Source of the DNA: Victivallis vadensis
GTDB lineage: Bacteria > Verrucomicrobiota > Lentisphaeria > Victivallales > Victivallaceae
DNA length: 64,000 nucleotides
Reading direction: 5' to 3'
NCBI RefSeq assembly: GCF_003096415.1
Contig: NZ_QEKH01000004.1
Span: forward strand, 1-64,000
Shown here: piece by piece, positions 21,601 through 27,594 of the stretch
Position numbering within the stretch: position 1 is the first letter of the stretch
Layout: every line of letters begins with the position of its first letter
Position numbers and translations under genes: made by a program
The notes under the pieces: generated by a model
What the model saw: the letters and a program-made list of their open reading frames with translations, nothing else
Databases searched by the model: none
What the model was told of the DNA's origin: nothing

Positions 21601-21958
21601 CCCAATTGGAACGATACTGGTATCGATGTATCAATGCGGCCAATTCCTCTTTCTTGGCCGCCGACAGATGCGGGGGATCCGGATTATTCAGGAACATTAA
21701 ACACGCAGGCCTCGATATCCCCGCCAGCTCGCCACTATTTTCTGTATTATTGACATGGATATTTCCCCCGGTATCAAGATGTATTTCAAACGGTTCGAGG
21801 ATTTCTTCAATCCTCAAGGAGGAGAGTTTTCCGTGCTTTTTTTCCACCACTCAATCGCCTGAGCCGCAATCGATTATGGCAAAACGAAAAAAATTCCAAG
21901 ACATTTTCCTGTAAGCGTGATTTAATATAAATCACAACTCTTTGATTGTCAATAAAAT
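21601..21958. other. gap with no convincing gene
   Basis: A minus-strand frame of 146 codons (21410-21850) runs through here, but it has no recognisable domain and overlaps the regulator remnant in a conflicting frame. The last 100 bases become AT-rich towards the tRNA-derived repeat. I see no promoter or RNA. Confidence 0.4.
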
Positions 21959-22008
21959 AAAATGGCTCCGGCAGCTGGATTCGAACCAGCGACCAAGTGG
22001 TTAACAGC
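21959..22008. repeat. attL: displaced 3' half of tRNA-Asn (50-bp direct repeat)
   Basis: These 50 bases are identical to 27516-27565, which includes the 3' half of the intact tRNA-Asn gene from the anticodon loop to CCA. This copy has no 5' half: after base 22008 the sequence leaves the tRNA. It is what remains when an element integrates into a tRNA 3' end and restores the gene with its own copy. Confidence 0.9.
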
Positions 22009-22035: not shown

Positions 22036-22056
22036 ATTGTTAGCTAATCGTTAGTT
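22036..22056. repeat. candidate integrase arm-type site, left end
   Basis: ATTGTTAGCTAATCG followed by TTAGTT. Nearly the same sequence occurs in the same direction at 27408-27428 near the other end. Each contains two GTTAG units. Located between attL and the integrase start. Confidence 0.5.
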
Positions 22057-22080: not shown

Positions 22081-23454
22081 ATGGCAAAAGATCGGCGATT
22101 AAAAGGAACTGGAACGATTTTTAAAAGGAATGGCAAATTTGTTCATCAGTATTCCGATATTGACGGAAAGGTAAAAACAATCACGTTGAAAGATGAATGC
22201 GGTAAGCCTGTAACGCTCAGAGCGAAAGCTGATGCAATCGTAGCGGAGTTGACCAGAGAACGGCAGAAAATCGAATTTATTGAAAATCGGCTTGAGTATA
22301 TGGCTCAAGTTGCCGGAAGCAGGAAAATCATTCAACGCTCCAGAATCAAATTGTCCGAATTATGGGAAACGTATCTTCGCAACCCCAATCGTCCTGACAG
22401 TGGCAGGCTGACCCTAAAACGGAATGAATTGTACTGCCGAAAGTTTCTCTCTTTTTTGGAGGAGAAAAAGATTGATTCAATTGATGATATAACTTTCGAT
22501 ACCGCCGCAACATTCATGACGAATTTATGGAGCACAGGAATCTCTCCGAAAACCTATAACTATTACTTGCAAACCTTGAAATTGGTCTTCAAAACCTTAC
22601 TTCAGGACGATTCCCCTTTCAGGAACATAAAAGCTAAAACAGCCACAACCGAAAGCAGAAAACCTTTTACGCCGGAACAGGTAAGTGCTATTTTCAAAAC
22701 CTTGGATGACGAAAACTACCATATTCTCCACAAACCGCAAATGCGAATCCTCTTTCTTCTGGGGCTGTGCTTCGGATTGAGAATGCATGATGCCGCATGC
22801 TTTCGCTGGGACTATATACAAGGCGATGGCACGGTCAAATTCAAGGCGAGGAAAACAATAAAAACCATGAAACAGTATATTGTGCTTCCGATACCGTCGA
22901 TTCTGGAGGAACAATTCAAAATTGCGGAAACGTGGAAACGTAATGAATACATACTGCCCGATGTTGCGGAACGGTATGGCTACAATAGTTCGGGGATCAG
23001 CACTGATGTAGACAAACTCTTACGTTCGGCAGGAATACAAACCAAAGAACAGCCTGTTGAAACCCGGAGAATGTTCTACATAAATTCTCAAGGCGAGACG
23101 AAACAACGTCGGATCGGACGGTATTCTTTTCATTCGTTCCGGCATACATTCTGTACGATTGCGGCGAGTTCAGGAAAAGATTTATCGCTGATCAGATCCA
23201 TTGTCGGACACAGCAATGTCGCTATGACGGAACATTATACGCATTATACTCTTGAAGCCAAGAAGAGTGTAATCGAGTCGATTCCTTTAGCTGTCATGAC
23301 AAATTCTCCAAGGATCAGCGCAGAAATTCCCTTGATAACGGCATTTCAACAAGCGGACACAGAAGCTCTTGCCAAGGTAATTAACTATTTGGAAAGGAAC
23401 TTGTCGGATAAGCAGAAAAGAGAAATCTTAGAGTTACTGGTAGAATCATTCTAA
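22081..23454 (+). CDS. tyrosine-type site-specific integrase
   Basis: 457 aa. A Lys/Arg-rich N-terminal arm-binding region is followed by a core-binding domain (about 90-185) and a catalytic domain with Arg in FGLRMHDAACFRW (R234), lysines near 256-261, HSFRHTF (H351, R354), GHSN (H377) and Tyr in MTEHYTHYT (Y386 or Y389). All active-site residues are present, so the enzyme may be functional. It starts 73 bases inside the left tRNA repeat and reads into the element, the usual arrangement for tRNA-targeting elements. Codon use is AT-rich like the rest of the cargo. Confidence 0.93.
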   Translation: MAKDRRLKGTGTIFKRNGKFVHQYSDIDGKVKTITLKDECGKPVTLRAKADAIVAELTRERQKIEFIENRLEYMAQVAGSRKIIQRSRIKLSELWETYLRNPNRPDSGRLTLKRNELYCRKFLSFLEEKKIDSIDDITFDTAATFMTNLWSTGISPKTYNYYLQTLKLVFKTLLQDDSPFRNIKAKTATTESRKPFTPEQVSAIFKTLDDENYHILHKPQMRILFLLGLCFGLRMHDAACFRWDYIQGDGTVKFKARKTIKTMKQYIVLPIPSILEEQFKIAETWKRNEYILPDVAERYGYNSSGISTDVDKLLRSAGIQTKEQPVETRRMFYINSQGETKQRRIGRYSFHSFRHTFCTIAASSGKDLSLIRSIVGHSNVAMTEHYTHYTLEAKKSVIESIPLAVMTNSPRISAEIPLITAFQQADTEALAKVINYLERNLSDKQKREILELLVESF

Positions 23455-23552
23455 GTATGAGCAAAGTGCAATGTAATTTTTATTATGTTCCTATGTGTGA
23501 ATTATTTTTATAAAAATTTGATTTTTGAAAATATAATACTATATTATTTAGT

Positions 23553-23573: not shown

Positions 23574-23589
23574 AAAAAAAGTAATTCAC

Positions 23590-23690
23590 AGAGCACAAGG
23601 GGTGCTCTGAACAACCACACCGAATTGCTTATCGCCTCGGCGGTAGCATTGGTATATTTGTTCAGAGTGCCCTTTTTTTGTGCTCTCAAA
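23590..23690 (+). ncRNA. structured RNA / attenuator leader upstream of the zinc-ribbon gene
   Basis: One extended fold spans about 100 bases. AGAGCAC-AAGGG-GTGCTCT forms a small hairpin at 23590-23608. Alternatively GGGGTGCTCTGAACAA (23599-23614) pairs with TTGTTCAGAGTGCCC (23658-23672) around an inner stem with GCC-TC-GGC at its tip, followed by seven T (23673-23679): a long intrinsic terminator. GTGCTCT occurs again at 23680-23686 and could also pair with the first AGAGCAC. The folds exclude each other, as in attenuators. The zinc-ribbon gene starts 15 bases later. It could instead be a terminated small RNA; I recognise no known family. Confidence 0.55.
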
Positions 23691-23704
23691 CAGGAGAGTA
23701 ATAA

Positions 23705-23893
23705 ATGGAAAATAAAAATAGTAAATTTTGTTGGATTTGTTTCAAACTCATCGCCGAAAACGAAAAAGTCGCTTATGGAGTCGGTAATGACATGATCTGT
23801 TGCATGGATTGTTTCAGTCAGTTGGAACCTATGAAGGAAGACTATGAGGAATGGATGAATGACAACTTGGCAGAAATTTTAGAGTCGGCATAA
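23705..23893 (+). CDS. small zinc-ribbon protein
   Basis: 62 aa, AGGAG 8 bases before the ATG. Two Cys pairs, CWIC at residues 9-12 and CCMDC at 32-36, are spaced like a treble-clef or zinc-ribbon finger. The last 20 residues are strongly acidic (KEDYEEWMNDNLAEILESA). No catalytic residues. It lies between the structured RNA and a hairpin terminator, and meets the amidoligase gene tail to tail. It might bind DNA or protein, or be a substrate of the amidoligase; both are speculative. Confidence 0.7.
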   Translation: MENKNSKFCWICFKLIAENEKVAYGVGNDMICCMDCFSQLEPMKEDYEEWMNDNLAEILESA

Positions 23894-23942: not shown

Positions 23943-23990
23943 AAAAGAGTGGAATACCTATAGATATTCTTAAGGTAAACCACTCTTTTT
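23943..23990. terminator. bidirectional hairpin terminator between convergent genes
   Basis: AAAAGAGTGG at 23943-23952 pairs with CCACTCTTTT at 23980-23989, with further TACCT/AGGTA pairing inside. A-rich on one side and T-rich on the other, it can end transcripts of both the zinc-ribbon gene and the amidoligase gene. Confidence 0.75.
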
Positions 23991-24001
23991 TATTGAGAAT
24001 A

Positions 24002-24967
24002 TCAGTCCAAGCGGCAATATTCGGATACCTTGAGGATTTGATCTCTGACCGTTCTTGTGGCGATTCCGATTTCTCTGGCTATTTCAGCTTCTGAGTAGCC
24101 TTGAAAATGGAGGTTGAGAACTTCATTTTCAAGGAAATGGATATGACATTCCGGCAGATCAAGTTTCAATAGATTGACTACCTGCGGAATGTTGACCAAG
24201 GCGATTACATGGTATTCGGCATCGGAATGTTCTCTGATACAGCCACGCATGATGGCTTGATATAAATCACGCTCAAGGCAGTATTGAATATAGGATTTGA
24301 CCTTTCCGGCGTGAAGCGTAGCCTCAAACCACCGAAATTCTACCGTTCCCCTGTAAAACAAACTATGAAAGTTGACACCATGATAGCGGGAATTGTGGTA
24401 ATGCTGGAGCCTTGCTTCATCCGTATTTGATTGCTGATACCATAAACAACTTAATTGATGTAAATTTTTAGGACGGTATTTGTTCACATCATTGATAAAA
24501 GATTCCTCTGTGGGACGGGTATAGGTTTCCAAACGTCCTTGCGATATGTTCAGCGAATGCAGAATCAAGGGTTCCTGCTTATACACAATTTTTGCCAAGT
24601 TGCCAAGTTGCCGACCGTCAAGCGTACTTGCGTCAACATGTACATGAATCCCGCAACTGGAATTAACCCGACCTCCCGCCTTACGAATCGCTCTGACGAT
24701 ATTCTGTAATACCGGAACGTCATCGGGATAGGTAAGAATGGGGCTCACGACTTCCGCATTGCTGCGACCGATACTTGCATCGGAAACGGCTTTCCATTGC
24801 CGACCGTCGGGAGCTGTGCAGCGCCATTTATCATAGCTTCCTCCTTCATGCTCTACAGTCCCCCCAATGACACTCTGAATCGCCTCTGCGGTGTCTTTCC
24901 TGTTCAGATTTACGGTTTCAATTTCGATTCCGAAGTGCATTCCGGTAAGTTGCGCTCTTTCGTCCAT
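24002..24967 (-). CDS. amidoligase-family protein with C-terminal helix-turn-helix
   Basis: 321 aa from the ATG at 24967, preferred over an upstream TTG because AGAGG precedes it. The glutamine-synthetase-like amidoligase motifs are intact: FGIEIETVN (E15, E17), WKAVSDASI near 58-66, EVVSP (E72), GIHVHVDAS (H108, H110) and VEFRWF near 205-220. Such enzymes join a carboxylate to an amine using ATP, often on peptides. The last 30 residues (YSEAEIAREIGIATRTVRDQIL) form a helix-turn-helix, an uncommon fusion that suggests DNA binding or self-regulation. Members usually sit with a GAT-II or gamma-glutamylcyclotransferase gene; none is present here. Confidence 0.82.
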   Translation of the reverse strand: MDERAQLTGMHFGIEIETVNLNRKDTAEAIQSVIGGTVEHEGGSYDKWRCTAPDGRQWKAVSDASIGRSNAEVVSPILTYPDDVPVLQNIVRAIRKAGGRVNSSCGIHVHVDASTLDGRQLGNLAKIVYKQEPLILHSLNISQGRLETYTRPTEESFINDVNKYRPKNLHQLSCLWYQQSNTDEARLQHYHNSRYHGVNFHSLFYRGTVEFRWFEATLHAGKVKSYIQYCLERDLYQAIMRGCIREHSDAEYHVIALVNIPQVVNLLKLDLPECHIHFLENEVLNLHFQGYSEAEIAREIGIATRTVRDQILKVSEYCRLD

Positions 24968-25466
24968 TTTTACCTCTTGTTTTTTGTGCAACTCGTTTAT
25001 TTTCTAATGCTTAAGATAGATCCAAAACAAGAAAAATCAAGCCTAAAAACAGATAATTTTATTAGTATTATTTCTATTTTTATCGATAATAATATACAAA
25101 AAACGATCCAGTTTTAGGAGTTAAAAAAGACAGAAAATGGATCAGATCGAAAGAATTGGAAAACGAAGAAATGAAAGGATTTCAGAATGGAATAATGGAG
25201 CCGTTTTGATGCATCTTCGGAGGGCGGAAAGAATCCGATGATTCATAGGAAATGGATCAAGAATGCGTCGCCTACTAGGCAAAATCTTAATTTTAGATAA
25301 TTTACCAGCTTAAGTCGGAGGAATTTTTTTAGAAAATTTTCAAATTTGAAATCTGAAACATTATGAAAAAATACAAAACAAAGAACAGACAACAGTTACT
25401 CCAGAAATGCTAACACAAGCACATGATGATCCCTGGCGATGAGCCTTAAGAATAAAAGCGTAGGAA
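24968..25466. other. AT-rich gap inside the element
   Basis: About 500 bases without a credible gene. It contains the amidoligase promoter region (AT-rich, 24968-25120) and a 34-codon frame at 25137 whose AGGAG is too distant to trust. No repeat unit or tRNA-like structure is seen. An undetected RNA is possible. Confidence 0.4.
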
Positions 25467-25497: not shown

Positions 25498-27393
25498 TTA
25501 AGAGTCATCACGATAAAAAATACTTTCTATCTCATTATCAATAATTTTTTCCTCATCTTTCTTTTCTCTTATATACTCCTCATAATCGAAAGTGTCTGAA
25601 TCCTTATTGATATATTCCATTGCAGAAACATTTGAAGCACATTCTCCAATATCAATGCAGTCTGCTGGCAAATCATTTTCTTCTAAAAAGACAGTAATAT
25701 TTTTTTCTAATTCATAATCAAAATCACTTTCTTTAATAGGGCAACCATATGAGTCCGTAGTATCAATTTCTTGTGCAATCTCACTTGCTTTTTCTTGCAT
25801 ATTACGCTCTACGGCTCTGAAAAAATCTTCTGGATATGTTGCTTTTTGGGTAAGGATTATTTGGTTCAGAATCAAGGTTGCCTCGAGACTTTGACAATGT
25901 TCTGATATATAAGCAATATAATCATCATCAGAAAAGCATGATAAGTCCAATTCCAAGTTGTGATTAACAAACCATTCAATGGTACTTAAAAAATATTCCG
26001 CATTTTCAGTATCAATATTAAAAAAATCAAATCCTTGAATATAGCGAATAATGCGCTCGGTGTTTATACTGGTTTTATTAGTTAAAATAAAATAGCAAAA
26101 CTGAAAAATGTAGTCGGCGGTATATGCTTCTCTTTGAAAATTGGCAAATATCTGTTCTGAAACCGAATTCCAAATCTCGTTGAACCGATATTTGGAGTTA
26201 CCTAAAGATAAAAACAGTGTCAACGACTGTATTGTTTTTAACGCCATAAGCGGATATAAAACGTGTTGAATGTCATCAAGGTATTTTGATAGCAAATAAT
26301 CACCAATTGAAGGATTAAATAGTGAGTAAGTTATTGTTTTCCTTGAAATATCTATATTCTTATTGAGCACTGCTCGTATAGCGACTCTAATATTAATGAA
26401 AAATTCCTGCTGAGAATTAGACATAAGTAAATGTGGTAATTTAAGCTTAATATATTCAAAAGCATTTCGTAGGATATTTTCCGCACATTCTGATTTATTC
26501 CAAAAGACAAGGATAACAAGGAAGCGCTGCAATTCTGTCAACTGGATAGAAAAAGAGTTTTCCCAAATATTTGCAGGTTCTTTTAATGATTTATCAATGA
26601 ATGCGACATAAGAATTTGGCGTTATTTTCTGATCATTTTCTACTTTAAAAGAATCCGTTATATAGGAAATCAATCGAGGATTATAATTCTCATGATGAAC
26701 GATGGAAAGGTATTTCTTGTTATCATAAATTTTATCAATGAACTCCTTCTTCAATAAGGAGTGAAAAACATGACTGTAAAAAATTTTCGCTTTAGTAGTA
26801 AGTGACAGATTTTCAAGTTTCACTTCATATTCATTACGGCGTATATTCCCATCTTGAAAAATCTGTGATAAAACAAATCCTCGATTGATAATATGGGTCC
26901 TGGACGTTAAAATAAAGCGTTTATTATCTGCATTTCTTACTCGATTGATAAAAGCCATGATATGGGTATCAAGATTTTTTTCTATCGCTTCAAGGTAATT
27001 TTTCCCTAAAAAATCATCAAAGTAAAAAAGTTGCTTCTTTTCGTTTTTCCAAACGGCTTCTATTTCGGCAATATTATTGTATATTATATAAAACTCAAAA
27101 TCTTGTTGTACTACATAATTTATTGCTAACAAGCGTGCCAGAGTCGTCTTGCCGATTCCAGGGGCACCCGTTAGAATCGCTGTGTGTGTTTCTTTTAAAC
27201 GATTCAAGGCATTATTAAAATCATCAGTCAAAATATATTTTGGTGAATCTCTGATTATTGTTTCAAGTTCGGACTGGCTTCGCCCAATAATAGCATTGTT
27301 TAATATCTTATCCAGAACGGCAGTACTGGTAAACCACAACTTATAGTGCTTTTTTAAGATATAGCGTGGCTGATAAAACTTGAAATGACGCAA
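25498..27393 (-). CDS. nSTAND3-type P-loop NTPase, apparently truncated at the N-terminus
   Basis: 631 aa. Residues 15-50 (KKHYKLWFTSTAVLDKILNN, IIGRSQSELE) lead into a STAND-type NTPase: Walker A GAPGIGKT at 76-83, Walker B LFYFDD at 122-127, RFILTSRTH near 160, then a long helical region without clear repeats. This matches my recollection of nSTAND3 proteins in antiphage systems, which usually begin with a restriction-endonuclease-like domain. Here the frame begins at a TTG with no ribosome site and is closed by a stop 13 bases further up, so the effector domain is missing or replaced. AT-rich like the rest of the element. Confidence 0.75.
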   Translation of the reverse strand: MRHFKFYQPRYILKKHYKLWFTSTAVLDKILNNAIIGRSQSELETIIRDSPKYILTDDFNNALNRLKETHTAILTGAPGIGKTTLARLLAINYVVQQDFEFYIIYNNIAEIEAVWKNEKKQLFYFDDFLGKNYLEAIEKNLDTHIMAFINRVRNADNKRFILTSRTHIINRGFVLSQIFQDGNIRRNEYEVKLENLSLTTKAKIFYSHVFHSLLKKEFIDKIYDNKKYLSIVHHENYNPRLISYITDSFKVENDQKITPNSYVAFIDKSLKEPANIWENSFSIQLTELQRFLVILVFWNKSECAENILRNAFEYIKLKLPHLLMSNSQQEFFINIRVAIRAVLNKNIDISRKTITYSLFNPSIGDYLLSKYLDDIQHVLYPLMALKTIQSLTLFLSLGNSKYRFNEIWNSVSEQIFANFQREAYTADYIFQFCYFILTNKTSINTERIIRYIQGFDFFNIDTENAEYFLSTIEWFVNHNLELDLSCFSDDDYIAYISEHCQSLEATLILNQIILTQKATYPEDFFRAVERNMQEKASEIAQEIDTTDSYGCPIKESDFDYELEKNITVFLEENDLPADCIDIGECASNVSAMEYINKDSDTFDYEEYIREKKDEEKIIDNEIESIFYRDDS

Positions 27394-27407: not shown

Positions 27408-27428
27408 ATTGTTAGGCTATCGTTAGTT
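27408..27428. repeat. candidate integrase arm-type site, right end
   Basis: ATTGTTAGGCTATCG followed by TTAGTT; direct-repeat partner of 22036-22056, differing by one inserted and one missing base. It lies just upstream of the NTPase frame, about 90 bases from the right tRNA repeat. Confidence 0.5.
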
Positions 27429-27515
27429 TATCCAATGGGAAGAACGGTATTTCTCCTTAAGTGCGATTTCATCAAAAAAAGAGACTTGAGCTGAATAAGT
27501 CGGAAAAAAGGCAAA

Positions 27516-27565
27516 AAAATGGCTCCGGCAGCTGGATTCGAACCAGCGACCAAGTGGTTAACAGC
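27516..27565. repeat. attR: tRNA-Asn 3'-half repeat
   Basis: Identical to 21959-22008. This copy is joined to the complete 5' half, so the tRNA gene stays intact. Confidence 0.88.
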
Positions 27566-27594
27566 CACCTACTCTACCGCTGAGCTATGCCGGA
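27520..27594 (-). tRNA. tRNA-Asn (anticodon GTT)
   Basis: 75 bases with encoded CCA. The acceptor stem TCCGGCA/TGCCGGA is perfect. The anticodon stem GTGG/CCAC encloses CTGTTAA, giving GTT at 34-36. The T arm reads GCTGG-TTCGAAT-CCAGC. The 3' half is duplicated at the far end of the integrated element. Confidence 0.95.

Follow-up and report, generated by a model that had tools for sequence, protein, structure and literature searches.

The window analysed here, a 64,000-nucleotide stretch of the Victivallis vadensis genome, contains a low-GC integrative element bounded by 53-bp direct repeats (98%) of the tRNA-Asn end, the left one at 21956–22008 and the right one at 27513–27565, within the tRNA-Asn gene at 27520–27594 (minus strand). 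The element carries a tyrosine integrase gene (22081–23454, plus strand; Pfam PF00589, 2.3e-15; PHROG integrase, 2.2e-47), a gene for a 62-residue zinc-ribbon protein (23705–23893, plus strand), an amidoligase-HTH gene (24002–24991, minus strand) and, as cargo, an nSTAND3 NTPase gene (25498–27393, minus strand; PF20720, 8.5e-43), which possibly serves in anti-phage defence. The leader RNA studied here lies between the integrase and zinc-ribbon genes, the integrase being context, outside the switch. The location given in a preliminary description of this DNA, before the zinc-ribbon gene and within a mobile element, is supported, and the RNA belongs to the 5′ leader of that gene.

Several other features of the element were observed. 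A 21-nt direct repeat (86%) is found just within both ends, at 22036–22056 and 27408–27428, and the two copies are candidate arm-type integrase sites. An inverted repeat, AAAAGAGTGG...CCACTCTTTT, located at 23943–23989, where the zinc-ribbon and amidoligase genes converge, and also present in sister elements, is probably a bidirectional terminator. The amidoligase and a 919-residue primase-like protein of a sister element (L006, 262–3021, plus strand) have about 96 C-terminal residues in common, 92% identical and ending in a sigma70_r4-like HTH, with unrelated N-terminal parts, a modular swap.

The zinc-ribbon protein is built around four conserved cysteines (C9xxC12 ... C33xxC36) in about 60 residues, a generic CxxC...CxxC module. 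In its AlphaFold2 model (pLDDT 70) a zinc-binding N-terminal half is followed by a C-terminal helix. Neither the family searches nor the fold search gave a significant match, the weak top fold matches including the ClpX zinc-binding domain. Nothing examined ties the protein to metal handling, and the analysis lent no support to a response to zinc or another metal.

Organisation of the leader

The leader contains four mutually complementary segments on the plus strand (23590–23686), named A to D, in which A can pair with B or D, and B with A or C. Segment A (AGAGCAC, 23590–23596) is the early partner of B, or that of D in read-through RNA, as indicated by the sequence, the folding of growing RNA and pair counts. 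It is separated by the loop AAGGG (23597–23601) from segment B (GTGCTCTGAACAA, 23602–23614), which is composed of GTGCTCT (23602–23608) and a GAACAA extension and is both the partner of A and the 5′ arm of the terminator. An apical stem-loop follows at 23619–23652. Segment C (TTGTTCAGAGTGCCC, 23658–23672) and a tract of seven T (23673–23679) form the 3′ arm and U tract of an intrinsic terminator shape, in which CTCTGAACAA is complementary to TTGTTCAGAG, directly before the T residues. Segment D (GTGCTCT, 23680–23686), placed after the U tract, pairs with A in read-through RNA only. The ribosome-binding site AGGAGAG (23692–23698) and the ATG at 23705 complete the arrangement. The letters and coordinates by which AGAGCAC had been described as facing two GTGCTCT copies were correct on direct reading, and the long terminator with seven T reported before the zinc-ribbon gene has the pairing and the shape claimed for it.

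The ribosome-binding site may also take part in these pairings. Its GAGAG is able to pair with CTCTC at 23683–23687, at segment D, and the predicted A–D pairing in the window falls to 0.72 once the site is included in the fold. As read from the alignment with the homologous copies described below, similar pairings look possible in copies C51 and C20 and are weak in C1; we treat the pairing of D with the ribosome-binding site as a lead only.

Leader-peptide attenuation was considered and rejected: the mini-ORF ATGACACAAAAAAAGTAA occurs in the window only, and the other copies differ.

A promoter upstream of the hairpin

A sigma-70-type scan located a promoter, TTGATT and TATATT separated by 16 nt, at 23518–23545 on the plus strand, from which transcription would start near 23552. 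The block is kept in all four copies of the leader, appearing in the alignment of upstream regions as TTTGAYTTTT ... CTATATTA. When seven genomes of the genus were scanned with the pattern, it was found at the four copies and at five further positions, compared with 0 for the reversed pattern used as control. One occurrence, TTGATTTTT-N-GTGCTATATTA, lies directly before a tmRNA gene (locus L066; genome G007, contig 9), a recurrence that supports a genuine promoter type and assigns the hairpin to the 5′ UTR. The tmRNA-type pattern is usable as a promoter model for the genus. The sole antisense candidate is a promoter-like sequence on the minus strand (23745–23718), in a region where the 13 sites found against 8.1 expected are chance numbers.

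The leader might be the source of a product in itself. The terminated RNA (about 110–130 nt) would then serve the element as a small regulatory RNA, binding a protein or an antisense target, with the zinc-ribbon mRNA as its read-through partner. A dedicated promoter of the tmRNA type, the long stable hairpin and the U tract present in all copies favour this explanation; the sequence of the apical loop lacks conservation, so that no conserved antisense seed is visible, and the downstream gene and its ribosome-binding site always stand at equal distance. We consider it unlikely.

Homologous copies and covariation

Three relatives of the zinc-ribbon protein were found, all from a single further genome of the genus (G005), on contigs 51, 20 and 1 (copies C51, C20 and C1), with 95, 75 and 50% identity over the alignment, respectively, and all three have a hairpin at the equivalent place. 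The comparison therefore covers four copies from two genomes of one genus. Their common order is promoter-like block, leader, hairpin with T tract, GGAGA and ATG; the GGAGA is invariant, the T tract is 7, 7, 6 and 5 nucleotides long, and the leader between the promoter block and the hairpin varies from about 15 to 40 nt. In C1, the most diverged copy, the apical stem has been rewritten and does not clearly resemble its counterparts in sequence, yet it still forms a strong stem, and the hairpin, T tract and ribosome-binding site are kept.

The preliminary description had proposed covariation in homologous upstream regions as a check on the folds, and the outcome differed between the helices. 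In alignment A4, 98% of cells are paired across the long hairpin (9 outer plus 16 inner pairs) and six of its pairs show two-sided changes, values met by 0/500 shuffles, and slid controls pair only 43–59%. Its outer helix, A–D, has 94.4% of cells paired and one two-sided change. The A–B helix, which would be the exclusive alternative fold of an attenuator, is present in 4/4 copies with 96.9% of cells paired; it has one two-sided change only, and with 122/500 shuffles matching it, its own covariation is not significant. The compensatory changes sought in this check were seen in the long hairpin. The conservation of D, although it lies 3′ of the U tract, suggests that this segment functions in the mRNA.

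A concerted change in C1 bears on all three helices. At columns 8 (A), 16 (B), 82 (C) and 94 (D) of the alignment, this copy has G, C, G and C where the others have A, T, A or G, and T, so that the A–B, B–C and A–D pairings are all preserved. This is suggestive support for a three-way scheme, drawn from four sequences.

The hairpin stays with the zinc-ribbon gene as the neighbours vary: the integrase is divergent in C1, and C20 has no adjacent integrase. The possibility that it is the terminator of the integrase gene was rejected on the same grounds. The contigs (loci L006, L007 and L008 for contigs 51, 20 and 1) carry three elements or remnants with the leader and zinc-ribbon cassette and different neighbours, among them primase-like, DUF5131 and HTH genes; leader and gene seem to move together as one cassette. 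On the minus strand of two of them (L007, about 397–506; L008, about 1153–1262) there is a second conserved long hairpin, CCGGGGCGATTCTGGGC ... CCCAGAATGCCCCGG, absent from the element of the window. Its 5′ arm can alternatively pair with CAGAATCGC in the loop, and it precedes a small ORF (MKF[RK]VVVQTRTTVFETIIEAVD...) by about 120–150 nt; this hairpin, too, may belong to a leader that folds in alternative ways.

Distribution

Searches with the protein, the pattern or a covariance model detected no further copies in viral contigs, phages, plasmids or GTDB contigs, nor among 137 genomes of the order and 388 of the phylum, the genome searches sampling the phylum with strict filters and the pattern search requiring near-exact letters. 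Three GTDB pattern matches were discarded, being at chance level (about 4 expected, by estimate) and failing the covariance model, as was a weak match in genome G009 (E 1.8e-4), which corresponds to a different, shorter hairpin. Distant elements with a related primase-like gene (L030–L035) have no convincing copy of the leader. At present, the cassette is known from one genus. No Rfam family reached its gathering score at the locus, where all matches were sub-threshold, and the window yielded only two tRNAs. The SpF43 sRNA model (RF02436) aligns to 23580–23687 with 24.8 bits, far under its gathering score of 70 (E 0.0098), and was rejected as a chance likeness between long hairpins. The leader constitutes an RNA family that Rfam lacks, with all copies to date coming from a single genus.

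Folding of the leader

The 100-nt core folds at −55.4 kcal/mol, compared with a mean of −24.2 for shuffled sequences (z −10.4; 0/200 shuffles as good). With the flanks included z is −7.6, and the three homologous stretches give −8.6, −8.6 and −12.6. The hairpin also folds as single-stranded DNA (z −6.9), which together with its inverted repeats with internal dyads, and with two related elements that have a large primase/helicase-like gene beside the cassette (weak domain matches, with naming partly from sequence reading), would fit a site acting as single-stranded or cruciform DNA in replication, excision or packaging of the element. However, G–U pairs are tolerated and the plus strand folds better than the minus strand in each copy, which argues for a role at the RNA level; besides, the position is fixed between promoter and ribosome-binding site and the T tract is one-sided. 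A DNA site is, in our judgement, very improbable.

The folds change as the RNA grows. In equilibrium folding from the predicted start, the probability of A–B is near 1 until about 4–6 nt before the U tract, and a switch from A–B to B–C follows, finished at the first U in 4/4 copies. The full-length transcribed stretch favours one nested hairpin, with A–D outside and B–C inside, and A–B is an early, transient fold. The mutually exclusive folds originally proposed are supported, as successive states in which the complete RNA prefers the nested one. Pre-emption by A–B as strong as that observed occurred in 0, 1, 14 and 21 of 1000 shuffled leaders. RNA polymerase covers the newest RNA, and the two folds are accordingly predicted to be near balance around the decision point. 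Masking segment A speeds closure of the terminator by about 2 nt only, and at the U tract B–C wins outright; A–B would be a weak antiterminator at most, unless something stabilises it, and the leader should terminate when unaided.

The outright equilibrium victory of B–C can also be read as the mark of an unregulated 5′ hairpin, which limits read-through, or stabilises the zinc-ribbon mRNA or is processed in it by RNase III, A–B being a by-product of the repeated segments. The weak covariation of A–B agrees with this, as does the A–D helix, conserved though 3′ of the U tract and fitting an extended mRNA stem of the RNase III type. On the other hand, A–B complementarity survives the concerted change in C1 and is kept better than chance expects, and we regard an unregulated hairpin as unlikely.

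A proposed model of transcription attenuation

The locus has the layout of an attenuator: a promoter, a terminator in the 5′ leader and a gene with its ribosome-binding site. Computation supports the type of promoter, the position of the leader, the shape of the terminator, the compensatory changes within the long hairpin and the presence of both folds in four copies; actual termination, regulation and the identity of a factor are inferred. A terminator-bearing 5′ leader of the zinc-ribbon gene is well supported. That this leader is a transcription attenuator, terminating by default and allowing read-through when A–B is stabilised, is a tentative reading whose chances we put a little short of even.

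In such an attenuator, RNA polymerase would start near 23552 and the A–B hairpin would be the first to form. The emerging segment C would push A off B, closing the B–C stem beside the U tract, and most transcripts would end near 23679, giving an RNA of about 130 nt. If a factor held A–B (AGAGCRC-AAGGG-GYGYUCU) or blocked C, the polymerase would pass and the zinc-ribbon mRNA would be made, in which A would pair with D. The A–D pairing, lying 3′ of the U tract, is beyond what simple attenuation explains. The likeliest factor would be the zinc-ribbon protein itself or another regulator encoded by the element. If the leader is regulated, a minimal integrative element, with an integrase, a zinc mini-protein and two more genes, times one of its own genes by RNA alone, and the protein and leader offer a compact, testable protein–RNA pair.

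Comparison with known systems

In protein-dependent antitermination of the Bgl/Sac family, the RAT hairpin overlaps the terminator (PMC4347634). The leader described here is similar in that the 3′ half of a short 5′ hairpin is part of the 5′ arm of an intrinsic terminator, and a bound protein could hold that hairpin. In contrast, A–B is a simple hairpin, 21 nt long with 8 bp, and the gene is not one for sugar use; no protein of the Bgl/Sac type was found by Pfam among the four main proteins of the element.

In attenuation of the pT181 type, the free leader permits transcription and an antisense RNA triggers the terminator (PMC3753616). In both systems the gene belongs to a mobile element and its 5′ leader includes a segment competing for the terminator arm, but here the terminator is the predicted default and the only antisense promoter candidate is within chance numbers.

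The Com protein of phage Mu, a 62-residue CCCC zinc protein, binds a leader hairpin and acts on the translation of another gene, mom (PMC6483171). The likeness lies in a mobile-element protein of about 62 residues with four zinc cysteines, adjoining a leader hairpin with alternative folds. The zinc-ribbon protein has no detectable homology to Com, and no match to the Com family was found in Pfam, PHROGs or NCBIfam, so the comparison is one of analogy only, by which we propose that the zinc-ribbon protein may bind RNA. Taken further, small integrative elements could possess in this cassette a new kind of antitermination module, unrelated to Bgl/Sac, pT181 and Com, in which a zinc mini-protein would bind A–B in the leader of its own gene, and perhaps further sites in the element or host, and so control read-through; we rate this extension as quite unlikely.
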